Below, piece after piece: positions 1-55,225 of a stretch of DNA of 55,225 bases; position 1 is the stretch's first letter, and every line of letters begins with the position of its first letter. Made by a program: the position numbers and the translations under genes. A model generated the notes under the pieces. The model was given only the letters and a program-made list of their open reading frames with translations. It had not been told where the DNA came from and ran no database searches. The stretch is from the IMG/VR virus record IMGVR_UViG_3300044675_002532, positions 1 to 55,225 of that record; one strand, given 5' to 3'. The stretch is from a virus.

Positions 1-208
1 TGTAGAGCGTGGTGCTTCCAACGAGAACGGGAATGCGACCCGCCTGAGTGGCGACCGTGCCAGACACAGAACCGTTGGTGAGCTGAGTCGAACCAATCGT
101 CAGCGTGCTGCAAACAAGGTTATCAATCGTAGCCGAAGCAACGGTTAAAACCGTACCAGAGAACCCGTTAAGCGAAATAACCGGTCCCGTAAATGTTGTA
201 TTAGCCAT
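1..208 (-). CDS. Small capsid-adjacent protein, copy 1 (truncated by window edge)
   Basis: The gene runs off the left edge; 69 codons are visible. It is the same gene as the intact 77-residue protein at 54659-54892, with an identical sequence over the last 118 bases but a different stretch at residues about 20-29. The upstream in-frame ATG used as an alternative start in the other copy is followed by a stop here, so the ATG at 208 with AGGA upstream is the real start. The protein is rich in Thr, Ser and Gly and has no recognised domain. Lying just downstream of the major capsid gene with its own promoter, it may be a capsid decoration or other abundant virion protein; that is inference. Confidence 0.8.
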   Translation of the reverse strand, partial: MANTTFTGPVISLNGFSGTVLTVASATIDNLVCSTLTIGSTQLTNGSVSGTVATQAGRIPVLVGSTTLY

Positions 209-230
209 GTCAATTCCTCATGCACAAGTC

Positions 231-273
231 GCTCATCTGTCTGTGCATCGTCCGCTAGGCCGGTCAGATGAGC
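231..273 (-). promoter_or_regulatory. Conserved 5'-UTR hairpin with covarying stem (copy 1)
   Basis: Perfect 9-bp inverted repeat (231-239 with 265-273) enclosing a 25-nt loop, in the untranslated leader of the small capsid-adjacent gene. The second copy (54916-54958) keeps the stem and loop length while two adjacent base pairs differ on both sides (C-G to T-A and T-A to A-T), so pairing is preserved. The loop is identical in both copies. This supports a functional RNA structure in the leader; its role is unknown. Confidence 0.75.
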
Positions 274-297
274 TGGTTACACCTAGTCCTATTTTCT

Positions 298-325
298 AGT
301 TTAGGCTTTTCTATAACGCCGTCAA
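298..325 (-). promoter_or_regulatory. Candidate sigma70 promoter for the small capsid-adjacent gene
   Basis: On the minus strand TTGACG (320-325) and TAAACT (298-303) are separated by 16 bp. The element lies just after the terminator that ends the capsid transcript and before the leader hairpin, so the small gene needs it. The same sequence, unchanged, is present in the second copy at 54983-55010. Confidence 0.5.
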
Positions 326-352
326 GCAAAAAGAAAGGGGGCCGAAGCCCCC
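325..352 (-). terminator. Rho-independent terminator after the major capsid gene
   Basis: On the minus strand a 6-bp G/C stem closes a TTCG tetraloop (337-352) and is followed by a T-rich run (tttcttttt). It ends the capsid transcript. The same hairpin recurs at 54637-54652 and 55022-55037. Confidence 0.8.
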
Positions 353-380
353 TCTCTCCAGTCACTCGGACTGATCCCCG

Positions 381-1295
381 TCACACGCCAGGTGTGCCGA
401 AAACAGTGCGCGGGTCGGTCCAGCCGAAAGCGTAACGCTCCGTGCTCTTGAAGCGCGTGGAGTCGGTTTCGAAGTCACCTTCCATGCTCTTCTCAAGGCC
501 ACGACGCATCATCAGCTTCAAGCCTTCCGGAGCGTCCGTCTTCACCCACCAAGCAGTGGTCGAAGTCAAACGCGACAGGTTGGCCTGACCGCCAGCGAGG
601 AGACCCATCGACTTCACCGGGTTGATGTCGTTGTCAGCCGTGCCAGTACGGAGGACGCTCTTCAAGAGCACTTCCGCTTGGAACACGTTCGACGGCGACA
701 CAACGAGCTTCTCCGGGTTCAAACGGATGCGCTTGCCGTTGTTGTCAACAGCGTTGCGGATCTGAATGAGGATCTGCTCAAGCGAGGTCTGCGACAGGTT
801 CGCCGGAGTCGTCAACTGGTTGCTGAACGTACCCTGAGCAATCGGGTGGTTCGTCGCAACAAGCGTCACGCCGTCGCCGCCGTTGTAGCCAGCGGTGAAA
901 GCGCGGTTGAGGATGTTGGCACCGAGGGTTTCCTTCGTTTCGATCAGCGACTGCGCCAAGTGCTTGGCATAGGTCTGACCGATACGGATGTGGTCACCAT
1001 CTTCCACGAGCACCTTCGTGAGCGCGAACGCAAGGCCGTAGACCTTGTAGACGTAACGCTGCAAGAAGAGCACGCCGCCAGCATCATACGTAACAGCGGT
1101 GCCGTCCGGGAGTTCCGGAGCAGCGCCGAATCCGTACAGAACCGGCTCTTCGTGGTAGTTGCGGGGAATGCCCTGCTGCTGGACGAATACTTGCTTCCAC
1201 TCGTCAGCACGCTGGTCATAAATGCCATCGAAAGCCTCGTTAAGAATAGGCTCAACAATGGAACGAAAGTCAGTACTACGCATTGGGACTGCCAT
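381..1295 (-). CDS. Major capsid protein (HK97-fold)
   Basis: 304 residues, the usual size for an HK97-type coat protein without a long delta domain. It forms the icosahedral head shell. The call rests on length, on its place after a scaffold-like gene in a terminase-portal-scaffold series, and on a general resemblance to podovirus coat proteins, including the N-terminal region on oligomerisation and arm and the 'RGLEKSMEGDFETDSTRFKS' type C-terminal stretch. A strong AAGGAGG site lies 8 bases before the ATG. The last 50 codons reappear at the right window edge (55074-55225) with only synonymous changes near the stop. Confidence 0.85.
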   Translation of the reverse strand: MAVPMRSTDFRSIVEPILNEAFDGIYDQRADEWKQVFVQQQGIPRNYHEEPVLYGFGAAPELPDGTAVTYDAGGVLFLQRYVYKVYGLAFALTKVLVEDGDHIRIGQTYAKHLAQSLIETKETLGANILNRAFTAGYNGGDGVTLVATNHPIAQGTFSNQLTTPANLSQTSLEQILIQIRNAVDNNGKRIRLNPEKLVVSPSNVFQAEVLLKSVLRTGTADNDINPVKSMGLLAGGQANLSRLTSTTAWWVKTDAPEGLKLMMRRGLEKSMEGDFETDSTRFKSTERYAFGWTDPRTVFGTPGV

Positions 1296-34502: not shown

Positions 34503-35936
34503 TTAGCCCCCACCAAGCTTGAGCAGGTCTTTGTAAATCTGATCATAGTCATACTGAGTGCCGTCAGATTTTGCTGGGAAGTACTTCTTGAACATGTCAA
34601 TCAAATCGGCAGCGCCTTTACCACCGGTAATCAACTTGGCGATAAGCGACGGATCTCCAGCCTGACCCGGAGTCGTGGTGGTATTGGTAATCGTCGTTTG
34701 CGGCAACTGAACACCACTGAGAACATCCGATAAGAACTTGATCTGCTCCTTCGGATACTTCTCTTGATTGAGGAAGTCCTGATAAGCCAGATCCAAGTTG
34801 GCTTGCTGCATGGCGCGTTCTTTTGCACCAACACCAGTAACTGCCTGAGCGCCAGTAAGCCCCATGGTCTGAGCAGCTTCGCCCAGCATAGAATACTTGG
34901 ATGCAAGGTTCTGAAGGTTTTGAGCATCCTGTTGGGTAAGCTGCCCTTTCGACTCTCCAATCCGAGCCAAGTTTGCCGCGTCCTGCTGAGTAAGCTGGCC
35001 CGTAGCCTTGCCAATCTCTGCAATCCGAGATGCGTCGTCAGAAGTAAGCTGACCCATCTTCGCGCCAATGTCGGCAACGCGAACGCCACTCTCCAGCATC
35101 CGGTTAAGGTCGGAAGTGCTGAGCTGACCAACGGTTCCGGCCAACTGAGCCAACCGGCCAACGTCTTGACCGTAGATGTCCGCAGCCTGACCGTAACCAG
35201 CCTGAAGCGCCTTGGCCTGCTCAGCCAGAATAGCCTCTTGCGTATCTCGCAACGCCCGAGCGCCAAACTCACCCATGCGGGTGCTGCCCGGACCCACGCT
35301 AAACTGACCGGCTCCGATGAACTCCTGACCGATGGCCGGGAGATACTTCTCTTGCAACTGGCGAACACCAATGTCGCCCATCTGCTCAACCACGTTCTTC
35401 AGGTACGGACTCATGTATTCCTGAGCCGCCTGCGGGAACGTCCGAGACGCTGCGCCCAAGAACGGTTGCGCTGCCGTTAAAGCCGAAGCCTGTCCCGCTT
35501 GCTGAATTGGAGTCAGAGCCTGCGTAAACATCGGCTGAGCGGTAGATAGCGCAGACATGCCTGCGGCTTGAGTCAGGTACGGAGCTGCTGCTTTAGCGCC
35601 CTGCATTCCCGCTGCTGTTGCAAAGTCCCCGGCTGCGGCACCCATCCCGCTCATGCCACCGGCTTGACCCAAAGCAGCACCGGCTTGATTTAAGAAGGGC
35701 TGATAAGCACCCGCTGCCGCTTTAGTCTGCTCAAAACCGGAAAGTTCGGTCGGGGTAAATCCCGCAATCCGAGGACCGGTGTACTGAGCATACGGAAGGT
35801 TAGCAATGCCCTGAGCACGACCCAGCATGTCCGTGGTGTAGTCGGTGTACCACTGAGGAAGTTGGGTTTGCGTACTGGTTGCAGTACTGCCGGGAGTGGG
35901 AGCCTTGCCCCCGAAAAGAAAGTCTACGACGCTCAT
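34503..35936 (-). CDS. Probable ejection/internal virion protein with GQLT repeats
   Basis: 477 residues, rich in Ala, Gln and Gly, predicted helical. Residues about 265-345 contain four or five copies of an 18-23-residue unit built on 'I/LGxxxGQLTxxDAxxL'. The N-terminal 60 residues are less helical and carry WYTDYTTDMLGRA. The composition is like P22 gp7/gp16/gp20 ejection proteins. It abuts its neighbours; the start codon overlaps the upstream stop by 1 base. Confidence 0.6.
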   Translation of the reverse strand: MSVVDFLFGGKAPTPGSTATSTQTQLPQWYTDYTTDMLGRAQGIANLPYAQYTGPRIAGFTPTELSGFEQTKAAAGAYQPFLNQAGAALGQAGGMSGMGAAAGDFATAAGMQGAKAAAPYLTQAAGMSALSTAQPMFTQALTPIQQAGQASALTAAQPFLGAASRTFPQAAQEYMSPYLKNVVEQMGDIGVRQLQEKYLPAIGQEFIGAGQFSVGPGSTRMGEFGARALRDTQEAILAEQAKALQAGYGQAADIYGQDVGRLAQLAGTVGQLSTSDLNRMLESGVRVADIGAKMGQLTSDDASRIAEIGKATGQLTQQDAANLARIGESKGQLTQQDAQNLQNLASKYSMLGEAAQTMGLTGAQAVTGVGAKERAMQQANLDLAYQDFLNQEKYPKEQIKFLSDVLSGVQLPQTTITNTTTTPGQAGDPSLIAKLITGGKGAADLIDMFKKYFPAKSDGTQYDYDQIYKDLLKLGGG

Positions 35937-38773
35937 CAGGTCAACCCTCCGCCCATGTACTTATCGGGCGACTTTGCGTTTGGACTAATCCGGCCACGCG
36001 ATAGGGCACGACCCTTGTGCTTTCGGATATTAGCACGGAACTTATCCATGCGCCGAGCACCCTCCTTGGTCGAGCCGTCCCCCAGCAGAGCCAGCGTTTC
36101 AGCATCAATCACATATTCCCCGTCGCTCAGAAGAGCCGGGATCTTGTCTTCTCGACCCGAGCCGGGACCATCCACGTAGCGGGAACTCTTGGAACCACCC
36201 TTGGCGTAGCCAGTCAGACCGCCCGTAGCCATCCCCGGTTCTTTAGGCGGTTCAACCATAGGCTCAGGGACAGACATCGTTAGCCCAGCATTCATGGCAT
36301 TGCGACGAGCCTCTTCCTGTTGAGCAAGCATTGCGGCCCGCCCGGCATCACTTTGACGATATGCGATTTCCGCAGCATTCTCGGCAGAGCGTTCAGACAG
36401 GTAATTGCGATAGTCGCCTTCGCTCATGCCACTCAACGGAGCCATTCGCTGAACGTACTCGTCATATCGCTCCGGACTCATCTTGCTCTTTTGAGTCCAC
36501 AAATTAAACCAATCAACTCGGTCGCCACTTGGACGCATGTCCTCCTTAACTGGAGTCAGTGGTGAAGGCACGTTCTGATCCTGAACATACTTCTTGTAAA
36601 ATTCCGGATCTTCCTCAGCAATTTGCGGCTTGATGGAAAGCGGTCCCGCAGTGTTTATTGGATACGGAACGAAATTCCTTCGGGTTGAATCGGTGTAATA
36701 ACCTTCAACTCCATCTACCGTAGCTGGGATCAGTACTTGAGCGCCCATCACCATATCTTCCGTATTGCCCGGAGGATTGGCTGGCGGAGACTCAGGCTCT
36801 GACAGGGGAGGCTGTACCGGTTTCTCTAACTGGAAACTACCCTCAAAGAACTTCGCTTCAGGACGAGTTCCGTAGGTGTAGTAGTCCATGTCCGGACTCA
36901 GTTGTTTACGGGTATAGGTGTACTTCGGCAACGCACCGCCCATGCCGCCAGAACCAATGGAAGGACCAGTCGGACCTTGCGGGGTCTTTGAAGTTGCAGA
37001 CCCAATAGCGCCAATCAACTTGAGAATGTTTTCCAAGTTTAGATACTTGTCCTTCAAATCTTTAAGCGGATCAGGCTTATTGATTTTGGGTTCTTTAACC
37101 GGATCAACTGGAGTTGTCGGAGGAACGACAATTGGCGGAATGATAATGTCATCTTTAACAGGCTTGTCTGTTTCAATAACAACTTCATCAAGCGGGTCTT
37201 TTGGAGGAGGGGTGACCACTGGCGGGGTCTCAGGCTCACGCTCCGTTTCAACCTTAACCTCATCAAGAGGCGGCTTCGTCGGAGTAGTAACAACTGGCGG
37301 AGTTTCAGGCTCACGCTCAGTCTCAACCTTAACCTCATCAAGAGGCGGCTTCGTTGGAGTAGTGACAACCGGCGGGGTCTCAGGCTCACGCTCCGTTTCA
37401 ACCTTAACTTCTTCCTCAGGCTTTTCCGGAGCAGCCTCATCCAAAGGACTTTTTGGGGTAGGCTCAGTCACAACCGGAGTAGTCGGCTGATCTCGTTCTG
37501 TTTCAACTTTAACTTCTTCTTCCGCAGCAGGTTGCTCATCAACAGGAGGCTCTTGAGACAACGGCGGTTCTACAACTGGCGGGGGAGGTTCAATCTGATC
37601 CCTAGTTGTTTCAACTTTAACTTCAGGCTCTTTAGTCGAAGGTTGCGAAGCGGCAACAGAAGTCAATGTTGTAGCGGCGTTTGTCAAAGCGCCACCAGTA
37701 TTTGTAATTACATTTACTTGATCAAGATTGTCTACAATACCCTGAGTGATATTAGACGCAGTGGCGTCGTCAATTGTTTCAACTCCACCCTGAAGAACGT
37801 CGCCAGCCTTTGAGGCTGAATTAAGAAGACCGCTATCTTGAACTGCTTTTGTAACTGCCTTAATTGCTTTGTCACTAACAAAAGTCAATCCAGCAGCCAT
37901 TGCCGCAGACTTAAGAACGTCCCCAAGATCGCCGCCTTTAGCTCCGGTAACGCCGCCAGAAATGACCGCATTACCAATCATTTTTGCCTGCAATGTGCTT
38001 AGCGTGTTGTAACCCAAAGCCTCGCCAATCTTGATGCCAATTGTTTCAGGAATAGCTAGAACGCTTTTTACCGCGCTACTGACGCTTGAAAGACCGCCGC
38101 CAGTTCCGCCAGCACTCGCAGCGCCAGCTCCACCAGCACCACCAAGACCGGCAAGCGCAGTTCCACCAGCGTACGCAACACCTCCAATAACAGCGGCGCG
38201 AATCAACTTATCAAAAGCCGTCATCTCTTTGACAAGCTCTTGAGGTTCAAATGCTCTCTGAACATCCGGATAGCCGATAAGCTCTCCAAGCGGCCCAAGT
38301 GCAGCGCCTTCCTTTGGAATCTGGGCAACTTGCAGCGATTGCTCAAGCGCCTTATCTGGCGTGAATTTAACTTCGCGTTCCTTCTGCTCGCCCATCAAAT
38401 CCTTAGGCATAGCATTGAAGAACAACTTCATTTCATCGTTACTAAACGGACCACGAAGCGTTTTCAGTTCAGTTGGATCAATTAGAAGATTCTGTACGTT
38501 GTTGTCCTTGGCATACTTAAATGCAGAATCAAACTGATTGTTTTGCAGAAGGCTAGATAATACTTCTCGCTGGGGTCGGGTCTCAGCAGCAGCTTTCTCT
38601 TTTGCAGCCAACTGCTCAGGAGACTTTCCCTGCATACGCAAGAAGGCAGCCTGCAAACCGGGCGGAATCTTGGGAGCCGCTACCTCGCCACCTTCTGCAT
38701 AAGCTTCAGACAAAGGCCCATAGACCGTCTCTTCAGCATTCGGGATCGTGCCGTAAGTGTAGTAGTTAGCCAT
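35936..38773 (-). CDS. Large virion protein with Pro/Glu repeats and conserved C-terminal domain
   Basis: 945 residues. The N-terminus has YAEGGEV; a Gly/Ala-rich hydrophobic segment lies at about 190-225; a Pro/Glu/Thr/Val repeat region spans about 360-560, including a 25-residue unit (EVKVETEREPETPPVVTTPT...) present about 2.5 times; the C-terminal about 100 residues (GYAKGG.., GREDKIPALLSDGEYVIDAETLALLGDGS) match a domain I know from aquatic phages. The repeats could make an extended, flexible linker. Probably a virion or ejected protein. Confidence 0.6.
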   Translation of the reverse strand: MANYYTYGTIPNAEETVYGPLSEAYAEGGEVAAPKIPPGLQAAFLRMQGKSPEQLAAKEKAAAETRPQREVLSSLLQNNQFDSAFKYAKDNNVQNLLIDPTELKTLRGPFSNDEMKLFFNAMPKDLMGEQKEREVKFTPDKALEQSLQVAQIPKEGAALGPLGELIGYPDVQRAFEPQELVKEMTAFDKLIRAAVIGGVAYAGGTALAGLGGAGGAGAASAGGTGGGLSSVSSAVKSVLAIPETIGIKIGEALGYNTLSTLQAKMIGNAVISGGVTGAKGGDLGDVLKSAAMAAGLTFVSDKAIKAVTKAVQDSGLLNSASKAGDVLQGGVETIDDATASNITQGIVDNLDQVNVITNTGGALTNAATTLTSVAASQPSTKEPEVKVETTRDQIEPPPPVVEPPLSQEPPVDEQPAAEEEVKVETERDQPTTPVVTEPTPKSPLDEAAPEKPEEEVKVETEREPETPPVVTTPTKPPLDEVKVETEREPETPPVVTTPTKPPLDEVKVETEREPETPPVVTPPPKDPLDEVVIETDKPVKDDIIIPPIVVPPTTPVDPVKEPKINKPDPLKDLKDKYLNLENILKLIGAIGSATSKTPQGPTGPSIGSGGMGGALPKYTYTRKQLSPDMDYYTYGTRPEAKFFEGSFQLEKPVQPPLSEPESPPANPPGNTEDMVMGAQVLIPATVDGVEGYYTDSTRRNFVPYPINTAGPLSIKPQIAEEDPEFYKKYVQDQNVPSPLTPVKEDMRPSGDRVDWFNLWTQKSKMSPERYDEYVQRMAPLSGMSEGDYRNYLSERSAENAAEIAYRQSDAGRAAMLAQQEEARRNAMNAGLTMSVPEPMVEPPKEPGMATGGLTGYAKGGSKSSRYVDGPGSGREDKIPALLSDGEYVIDAETLALLGDGSTKEGARRMDKFRANIRKHKGRALSRGRISPNAKSPDKYMGGGLT
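37226..37410 (-). repeat. 75-bp in-frame tandem repeat, about 2.5 copies
   Basis: The units start at about 37226, 37301 and 37376 and encode the EVKVETEREPETPPVV-type block of the 945-residue protein. The copies differ mostly at third positions, indicating a duplication that has been kept under selection. Confidence 0.7.
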
Positions 38774-53974: not shown

Positions 53975-54604
53975 TCAGGCCGTCGATTGCTGAACGATTG
54001 TGAAGCGAACCGAGCCGTTGCCCGAATTAATCTTCAAGCGCACCGCTCGCATCAACGTGGTCGTAAATTGCGTTTCATCGCCGCTCGCTGCTGTCAGGCT
54101 CGCATTTGGGTGCGGAACCGCTAACTGCTGGATGCTCAGATCAAACGGATCTTCGTTCGTGTACTCAACCGAGTAGTTGACCGTACCGCTGGTCTTACCA
54201 GAGATGTTGGTCACTTGGTTCGGCGTGTAGATGTCGAGCGGAATCCACGACGTATACCCAGACACACCGTTGCCGATGCTGATGGTAGATGCCGCTGCTG
54301 CGCTTGACGTAATGCCGGTCACCGTCGCAAACGACAGCGAACCCGTCACCGTACCCGAAGCCGTCAGAGCCAGTGTCTCAACCTGAGACTGCCCCGCAGG
54401 ACCCGTACCGGTCACCACAAAGTTGATGGTAGAAGAGGCTGCGTTAGTTGCTGTCAAGACAGCCGGTACCGTCAACACGGCTACGCCGTTCGATACCAAC
54501 ACTCCATCCAACGTAATCGCTCCAGATACGCTCAGCGACTGGGCTGAAACGATACTGTCCGCATCTGCCGCCGGTTGTGATCTTGTAAAACTAATAGGAC
54601 GCAT
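53975..54604 (-). CDS. Hypothetical structural protein
   Basis: 209 residues. Thr/Ser/Val-rich, predicted all-beta, with two repeated-looking halves (about 25-100 and 105-205). The second half with SWIPLDIYTPNQVTNISGKTSGTVNYSVEYTNEDPF looks like a jelly-roll strand series. No membrane segment or enzyme motif. It lies after the terminator that ends the small capsid-adjacent gene. Possibly a head decoration or spike protein. Confidence 0.55.
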   Translation of the reverse strand: MRPISFTRSQPAADADSIVSAQSLSVSGAITLDGVLVSNGVAVLTVPAVLTATNAASSTINFVVTGTGPAGQSQVETLALTASGTVTGSLSFATVTGITSSAAAASTISIGNGVSGYTSWIPLDIYTPNQVTNISGKTSGTVNYSVEYTNEDPFDLSIQQLAVPHPNASLTAASGDETQFTTTLMRAVRLKINSGNGSVRFTIVQQSTA

Positions 54605-54636
54605 GGTTGCTTTCCCTCACAATCACATTGAGAAAA

Positions 54637-54652
54637 GGGGGCCGAAGCCCCC
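54637..54652 (-). terminator. Rho-independent terminator after the small capsid-adjacent gene
   Basis: Same 6-bp G/C stem and TTCG loop as at 337-352, followed on the minus strand by TTTTCTC. It lies 7 bases after the stop at 54659, giving the small gene a terminator on each side. Confidence 0.75.
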
Positions 54653-54658
54653 TCGTCA

Positions 54659-54892
54659 TTACGGCGTCAGGCTGCTGTACAGAGCGATGTAGAGCGTGGT
54701 GCTTCCAACGAGAACGGGAATGCGACCCGCCTGAGTGGCGACCGTGCCAGACACAGAACCGTTGGTGAGCTGAGTCGAACCAATCGTCAGCGTGCTGCAA
54801 ACAAGATTGGTGATGTTGGCCGAGTTAGAAAGGATGGTGCCAGAGAACCCATTCAGCGAGTTAACCGGCCCGGTAAAAGTTGTTGACGCCAT
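54659..54892 (-). CDS. Small capsid-adjacent protein, copy 2 (complete)
   Basis: 77 residues from the ATG at 54892, with AGGG about 10 bases upstream. STTFTGPVNSLNGFSGTIL, then TLTIGSTQLTNGSVSG and a hydrophobic C-terminal end; no known domain. The first copy at the left edge differs at residues about 3, 11, 20 and 21-29 but agrees exactly over the last 39 codons or so. As a separately promoted and terminated gene next to the capsid gene, a decoration or abundant virion protein is likely, but this is inference. Confidence 0.7.
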   Translation of the reverse strand: MASTTFTGPVNSLNGFSGTILSNSANITNLVCSTLTIGSTQLTNGSVSGTVATQAGRIPVLVGSTTLYIALYSSLTP

Positions 54893-54915
54893 TGCAATAC
54901 CCTCATGCACGAGTC

Positions 54916-54958
54916 GCTCATTAGTCTGTGCATCGTCCGCTAGGCCGGTCTAATGAGC
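54916..54958 (-). promoter_or_regulatory. Conserved 5'-UTR hairpin with covarying stem (copy 2)
   Basis: GCTCATTAG (54916-54924) pairs with CTAATGAGC (54950-54958) around the same 25-nt loop as copy 1, with two compensated pair changes relative to it. Confidence 0.75.
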
Positions 54959-54982
54959 TGGTTACACCTAGTCCTATTTTCT

Positions 54983-55010
54983 AGTTTAGGCTTTTCTATA
55001 ACGCCGTCAA
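54983..55010 (-). promoter_or_regulatory. Candidate promoter of the small capsid-adjacent gene, copy 2
   Basis: TTGACG (55005-55010) and TAAACT (54983-54988) on the minus strand, 16-bp spacer; the same as at 298-325. Confidence 0.5.
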
Positions 55011-55037
55011 GCAAAAAGAAAGGGGGCCGAAGCCCCC
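55011..55037 (-). terminator. Terminator after the major capsid gene, copy 2
   Basis: GGGGGC-TTCG-GCCCCC hairpin (55022-55037) and T-rich run on the minus strand, as at 325-352; the flanking bases differ. Confidence 0.75.
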
Positions 55038-55073
55038 CTTCTCCAGTCTTTTGGACTTATCCGCGTAAGCGGC

Positions 55074-55225
55074 TCAGACGCCGGGCGTACCAAACACCGT
55101 GCGCGGGTCGGTCCAGCCGAAAGCGTAACGCTCCGTGCTCTTGAAGCGCGTGGAGTCGGTTTCGAAGTCACCTTCCATGCTCTTCTCAAGGCCACGACGC
55201 ATCATCAGCTTCAAGCCTTCCGGAG
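55074..55225 (-). CDS. Major capsid protein C-terminus, copy 2 (truncated by window edge)
   Basis: The last 50 codons of the coat gene seen at 381-1295. The final 127 bases of the window match 406-532 exactly; between there and the stop, changes are synonymous (for example T, V, F, G, T, P and V codons all keep the amino acid). This is the same locus from another variant or a second gene copy; the former is more likely given the window-edge position. Confidence 0.85.
   Translation of the reverse strand, partial: PEGLKLMMRRGLEKSMEGDFETDSTRFKSTERYAFGWTDPRTVFGTPGV

Follow-up and report, generated by a model that had tools for sequence, protein, structure and literature searches.

The small gene downstream of the major capsid protein gene in the window, by which we mean the whole IMG/VR virus contig of 55,225 bp that was analyzed, is preceded by a cis-acting 5'-leader RNA of about 80 nt, and the comparison of related loci shows that such a leader, with four helices predicted from compensatory changes (P1, P2, PK1 and PK2), is located upstream of one gene family. 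The RNA is encoded on the minus strand and forms a double pseudoknot, of which the 9-bp stem reported in the preliminary description is helix P1. The element is thus much larger than the hairpin originally described, and includes P2 and two pseudoknots beyond the stem. On the minus strand, the gene for the major capsid protein (1295..381), which is the upstream neighbor of the element, is followed by its intrinsic terminator (354..334), directly downstream of which is a sigma-70-type promoter of the small cement-family gene (325..298; TTGACG-16-TAAACT, 9/12), and then by the hairpin (273..231), the Shine-Dalgarno (SD) core GAGG (219..216) and the start codon at 208 (206-208) of the small gene itself (1..208), which is incomplete at the contig end. 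The strand and the position in a leader between promoter and start codon had been correctly assigned.

The general layout, read in the direction of transcription, consists of a PK1 5' strand of 5 nt, a linker of mostly 6-8 nt, the 5' strand of P1 (9-10 bp), an A, the 5' strand of P2 (at least 3 bp) and a hexaloop with the PK1 3' strand, followed by the P2 3' strand, ACG, a PK2 5' strand of 6 nt, AGA, the P1 3' strand, a second linker of mostly 4-8 nt, the PK2 3' strand, the SD and the start. P2 is a 3-bp hairpin within the loop of P1, its own loop pairs with the upstream (5') end of the leader to form PK1, and the remainder of the P1 loop forms PK2 with a stretch of 6 nt adjoining or overlapping the SD. 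In the window, all on the minus strand, the PK1 5' strand CUAGG (282..286), the predicted position of which is within a few nt of the 5' end of the mRNA, pairs with CCUAG (255..259) in the P2 hexaloop (255-260). The P1 strands are GCUCAUCUG (265..273) and CAGAUGAGC (231..239), and the P2 strands are CCG (261..263), preceded by the conserved unpaired A (264), and CGG (252..254), followed by the conserved ACG (249-251). The PK2 5' strand AUGCAC (243..248), followed by the conserved AGA (240-242), pairs with GUGCAU (220..225), which directly adjoins the SD core. Among the leaders, PK1 and the start codon are usually 76-87 nt apart.

The stem letters and coordinates given previously for both ends of the contig were accurate (231-239 gctcatctg with 265-273 cagatgagc, and 54916-54924 gctcattag with 54950-54958 ctaatgagc), as was the observation that two adjacent base pairs are compensated between the two stems and that the loop and near flanks are identical. 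The interpretation of the two stems as copies has to be replaced, since the pair almost certainly results from the overlap of the contig ends at one locus. Positions 1-538 and 54688-55225 represent the same place in the genome, and their alignment has 550 columns, of which 480 are identical. Exactly one copy of the element is found in 13 of 15 large relatives, which are all of the 13 near-complete relatives with a match, and the gene order in the relatives is capsid gene, element, small gene and a homolog of the window gene at 53975..54604. Based on the single copy in the relatives, the gene order and the end overlap, the pair almost certainly represents two strain alleles of one locus, located where the ends of a single circularly permuted genome overlap, and the data point to a genome of about 54.7 kb that was assembled from strain variants. 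Paralogous duplication within the genome was rejected, as the relatives are single-copy and both copies are contig ends. The covariation between the two stems is real, but it is covariation between alleles. The second allele of the whole element is located at 54899..54974 on the minus strand, with P1 at 54916-54924/54950-54958, next to a complete allele of the small gene (54659-54892) that encodes 77 amino acids with a cement-family N-terminus (MASTTFTGPV...). The hairpin sequence of the capsid terminator recurs identically 3' of the small gene (54634-54654), and this gene is thereby a transcription unit by itself, with a promoter and a terminator of its own.

The 23-nt loop was found letter-for-letter in at least 42 IMG/VR contigs, every time before a gene starting with MA.TTF(S/T)GPV or a close variant, and relatives obtained by capsid similarity contained many diverged versions of the leader. 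A structural descriptor applied to the fetched loci (3.25 Mb) gave 252 distinct matches, as compared to none after reversal of the sequence, where the 252 matches do not represent a census because many of the loci were fetched via 16-mer loop motifs. Downstream of every interpretable match was one gene family, a few matches with the gene cut off or misframed having been set aside. The range extends over hundreds of lake and ocean phages, from freshwater phages to the cultured Pelagibacter phage HTVC023P. Among 80 loci chosen solely by similarity to the HTVC023P capsid, a covariance model identified 48 leaders, all of them on the sense strand and downstream of the capsid gene. Nucleotide BLAST against named phages gave no matches, and the named relatives were reached solely via the capsid protein. 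A pattern scan of genome contigs gave 85 stretches among the matches listed, of which the covariance model recognized only four (L594, L595, L604, L648) as true elements, the others being chance matches; these four are located in contigs of metagenome-assembled genomes assigned to Nitrosomonadales, Armatimonadetes and another bacterium, which are probably misbinned phage DNA. Genes for GIY-YIG and other homing-endonuclease-like proteins have repeatedly been inserted between the capsid and cement genes (L012, L013, L014, L092, L423), and some of these genes adjoin the RNA element, which is absent from L092.

Across these hundreds of related loci the same fold was recovered with extensive covariation, and further compensated stems, which the preliminary description had named as the support to look for, were present at the same position before the gene in hundreds of loci; the claim of a selected RNA structure thereby stands. 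We aligned 74 nonredundant leaders with MAFFT without structural information (after greedy filtering at 80% identity, and with both window alleles added), all of them picked by a parser that requires P1, P2 and PK2 and, in the final set, also PK1 pairing over 4 bp or more, which was present in 278 of the 279 parsed leaders. Under the four-helix model, 92.7% of the cells in these 74 leaders were paired and both sides had changed at 22 of 23 pairs, with 581 doubly changed cells as compared to 199 in shuffles. The covariation score was 0.803, as compared to 0.258 for shuffled alignments and 0.06-0.15 with the partners slid. Up to six pair types were observed per position in P1. Various forms of the pseudoknot helices were observed, with PK2 variants such as AUGCAC/GUGCAU, ACAUGC/GCAUGU, UCAUGC/GCAUGA, CUGCAC/GUGCAG, UUGCAC/GUGCAA, GUAUAG/CUAUAC, CUAUAG/CUAUAG, UAGUAG/CUACUA and CAUACA/UGUAUG, and PK1 variants such as CUAGG/CCUAG, CCGGG/CCCGG, CUGGG/CCCAG, CUUGG/CCAAG, CCUAG/CUAGG and ACUAUAC/GUAUAGU, among others.

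Pairing with the actual partners exceeded pairing with permuted partners for both PK1 (5.06 vs. 3.75 bp) and PK2 (6.18 vs. 5.10 bp), and also in the independent HTVC023P-capsid clade of 48 leaders (5.40 vs. 3.47 for PK1 and 5.58 vs. 3.92 for PK2). RNAalifold recovered P1 and P2 unaided. Minimum free energy folding was unremarkable (z = -0.25), and the evidence for the fold is therefore comparative. G-U pairs were far more frequent than A-C mismatches in P1 and P2 taken together (42 vs. 3 cells), which indicates that the structure is formed by the sense-strand RNA, as had been proposed. With its conserved position before a gene and its compensatory changes on the sense strand, the element belongs to the general kind of structured cis-regulatory 5'-leader RNAs. 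An inverted repeat at the DNA level or a chance pairing, which a stem taken alone could represent, is excluded by the covariation and has a negligible probability given the sense-strand G-U bias, the covarying interlocked pseudoknots and the lack of matches in the reversed sequence.

Both ends of the leader have fixed neighbors. A -10-like hexamer with its end exactly 9 nt upstream of the PK1 5' strand was present in 54 of 193 nonredundant upstream regions, as compared to an expectation of about 4.8 at that position and a maximum of 15 at any position in shuffles. This spacing suggests that transcription starts about 2 nt before PK1, and hence that the element constitutes the whole 5' untranslated region. 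At the other end, 251 of 279 leaders have an SD that starts between -2 and +1 nt relative to the PK2 end, and the pseudoknot helix thus ends in or at the SD, as in leaders of the preQ1-III/SAM-II type. The SD adjoins PK2 in most leaders and is not paired within it. The SD and PK2 share 1-3 nt in 21 of the 48 leaders of the HTVC023P clade, and in part of this clade the SD is paired inside PK2 (CCUAG with CUAGGAG). Where the element is located directly after an upstream open reading frame and no -10 box is detectable, a PK1 of at least 5 bp is kept in 53 of 54 cases. A second, smaller leader with the pattern CCYUG-A-hairpin-AC...GA-CARGGAG was observed before the same gene family, including in Roseobacter phage CRP-902 (L425:4492-4545, L507:3464-3518, L559:1147-1201, L568:3482-3531, L570:3483-3539, L582:3517-3569). 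In this leader the SD itself is paired in the outer helix, and the leader resembles a reduced version of the core described above.

The N-terminal 16 amino acids of the downstream products are conserved (MA.TTFSGPV.S.NGF), while the rest of the proteins fall into at least 26 unlinked C-terminal clusters of very different lengths, and the same leader types recur across these clusters. Examples of the mosaic family are found at 54659-54892 in the window, at L426:4502-4957 and in L204, L220 and L477. Sister genes starting with MSQTTWSGPLASGD occur without the leader. The products of one branch of the family are predicted capsid cement proteins. The gene is annotated as "cement protein" in DSL-LC04, and a predicted structure from this branch (model A4; pLDDT 69.6, pTM 0.62) matched 7dn2 (E = 6e-5), 7eel_H of Pam1 (9e-5), 7dou (4e-4) and 8h89_J (5e-4) in a Foldseek search. 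The model thus resembles capsid and cement chains of KHP30, KHP40, Pam1 and GP4, and has the Ig-like beta fold of cement proteins. Usable model confidence was obtained for this one product branch, the 77-residue product of the window itself having given a poor model, and a search of the PDB by sequence with the cement protein gave no credible match. In Pam1, the N-terminal loop of the cement protein contacts the E-loop of the capsid protein (PMC9698820), and because of this contact it is plausible that the family combines a constant capsid-binding N-terminal arm with an exchangeable body. The leader and the N-terminal arm form a constant unit, downstream of which unrelated domains of the capsid surface appear to have been exchanged.

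Membership in a known Rfam family was ruled out by scans with Rfam 15. No match above the gathering cut-off was obtained with cmscan in the window or in nine loci, none with an E-value of up to 10 for the leaders of L195 and L428, and the window stretch gave only weak matches, mostly on the terminator. Neither the consensus sequence nor the structure of the preQ1-III/SAM-II families was recognized by cmscan. A literature search that covered sources other than most subscription journals and bioRxiv preprints retrieved no description of such a leader. The architecture, taxonomic spread and target gene of the leader are new to the sources searched, and its kind is that of the pseudoknotted cis-regulatory leaders. 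Covarying and widespread structured leaders of virion genes are rare in DNA phages.

The preQ1-II, preQ1-III and SAM-II riboswitches are likewise small pseudoknots in 5' untranslated regions, with a last helix that touches or includes the first SD nucleotides, and in preQ1-III the first two SD nucleotides are partially occluded (PMC11625349). The phage leader differs from these in sequence and layout, with PK1 formed to the 5' end of the leader and P2 placed inside the P1 loop, and in that it serves a virion gene. The pseudoknot of T4 gene 32, which has been called perhaps the sole viral pseudoknot used in translational autoregulation (2010 review, PMC3014915), is similarly located in a phage 5' leader, the gene of which is highly expressed, and has relatives in other T4-type phages (PMC3014915). 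That knot is situated about 67 nt upstream of the start and serves as nucleation site for gp32, a single-stranded DNA-binding protein (PMC3014915), whereas the knot described here adjoins the SD, has four helices and precedes a cement-family gene. The manA (RF01745) and wcaG motifs are also structured RNAs in 5' untranslated regions, mainly from aquatic metagenomes and phages (PMC2864571), but they have another consensus, are associated with genes of host metabolism and gave no match in the Rfam scans.

The function that we consider best suited to these patterns, at about even confidence, is that the leader controls the initiation of translation of the cement-family gene. With PK2 folded, a helix that ends at or inside the SD would hinder binding of the 30S subunit, and with PK2 open the SD would be free; stabilization or melting of the fold would thereby determine how much cement protein is made, and when, in relation to the capsid protein. 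The element makes the matching of cement to capsid dose in a phage directly testable. Since the SD mostly abuts PK2, occlusion would be steric or partial. The retention of PK1 after open reading frames without a -10 box argues for action at the ribosome-binding site. Because the protein body is freely swapped while the leader and the N-terminal arm are retained, a constant controlling factor, such as a host factor, the capsid protein, the N-terminal arm that is conserved or the fold's own stability, would be likelier than the variable body of the product, and the free exchange argues against autoregulation by that body. Against translational control stands the finding that the element is not indispensable: in G002 (locus L092) it was replaced by a homing-endonuclease insertion and the gene persists with a plain SD, which shows that the element is dispensable at least there. 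Control of translation had already been suggested in the preliminary description and is still the best reading, whereas its other suggestion, a small RNA, is disfavored because the fold enters the SD of the same gene; a trans-acting role is also not favored by the absence of a terminator between element and gene.

Alternatively, the fold might act as a constitutive insulator or enhancer of translation that shields the SD and start from upstream RNA and provides strong, context-independent expression of a structural protein made in large amounts, with no switching. We consider this unlikely, despite a mainly unpaired SD just 3' of the fold, widely varying upstream contexts (an own promoter or a position directly after endonuclease genes) and unrelated protein bodies downstream. 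Such an insulator would need neither a paired SD, yet the SD is paired in the CUAGGAG leaders and in the small leader class, nor the conserved unpaired nucleotides (A, ACG, AGA).

The exclusive link to a single gene adjoining that of the capsid protein, the N-terminal 16 amino acids as the sole constant part of the product, and the contact between cement loop and capsid E-loop in Pam1 (PMC9698820) would also fit a site for translational repression, at which the fold is bound by free capsid protein or by the N-terminal arm of the cement protein, so that synthesis is turned off or on and the cement supply follows capsid assembly. This proposal seems rather doubtful, as no RNA-binding domain was seen, and as homing-endonuclease insertions part the capsid and cement genes in some genomes in which the element is retained. 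An extended version, to which we assign a similarly low probability, is that freshwater phages and HTVC023P-type pelagiphages share an assembly-sensing leader that reads the pool of free capsid protein (or cement arm) and tunes cement translation to head assembly, with the body exchanged behind a constant leader and N-terminal anchor.

Protection of the mRNA, with PK1 locking the 5' terminus of the transcript against decay by RppH, RNase E and exonucleases, would account for the position of the -10 hexamer (54 of 193 leaders) and a start about 2 nt before PK1. It is nevertheless improbable in our judgment, because PK1 is kept equally well after open reading frames with no recognizable -10 box (53 of 54) and the fixed spacing between PK2 and the SD is left unexplained. 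A metabolite riboswitch of the small pseudoknot kind (preQ1- or SAM-II-like) is very unlikely: there are invariant unpaired nucleotides around the pseudoknot core and the SD geometry resembles that of preQ1-III (PMC11625349), but the downstream gene is always one structural gene and never a metabolic one, and no Rfam match was obtained.

Elsewhere in the window, tandem repeats of a 75-nt unit, with variants at a spacing of 105-108 nt, were observed at 37167-37624 inside a large open reading frame (35936..38773).
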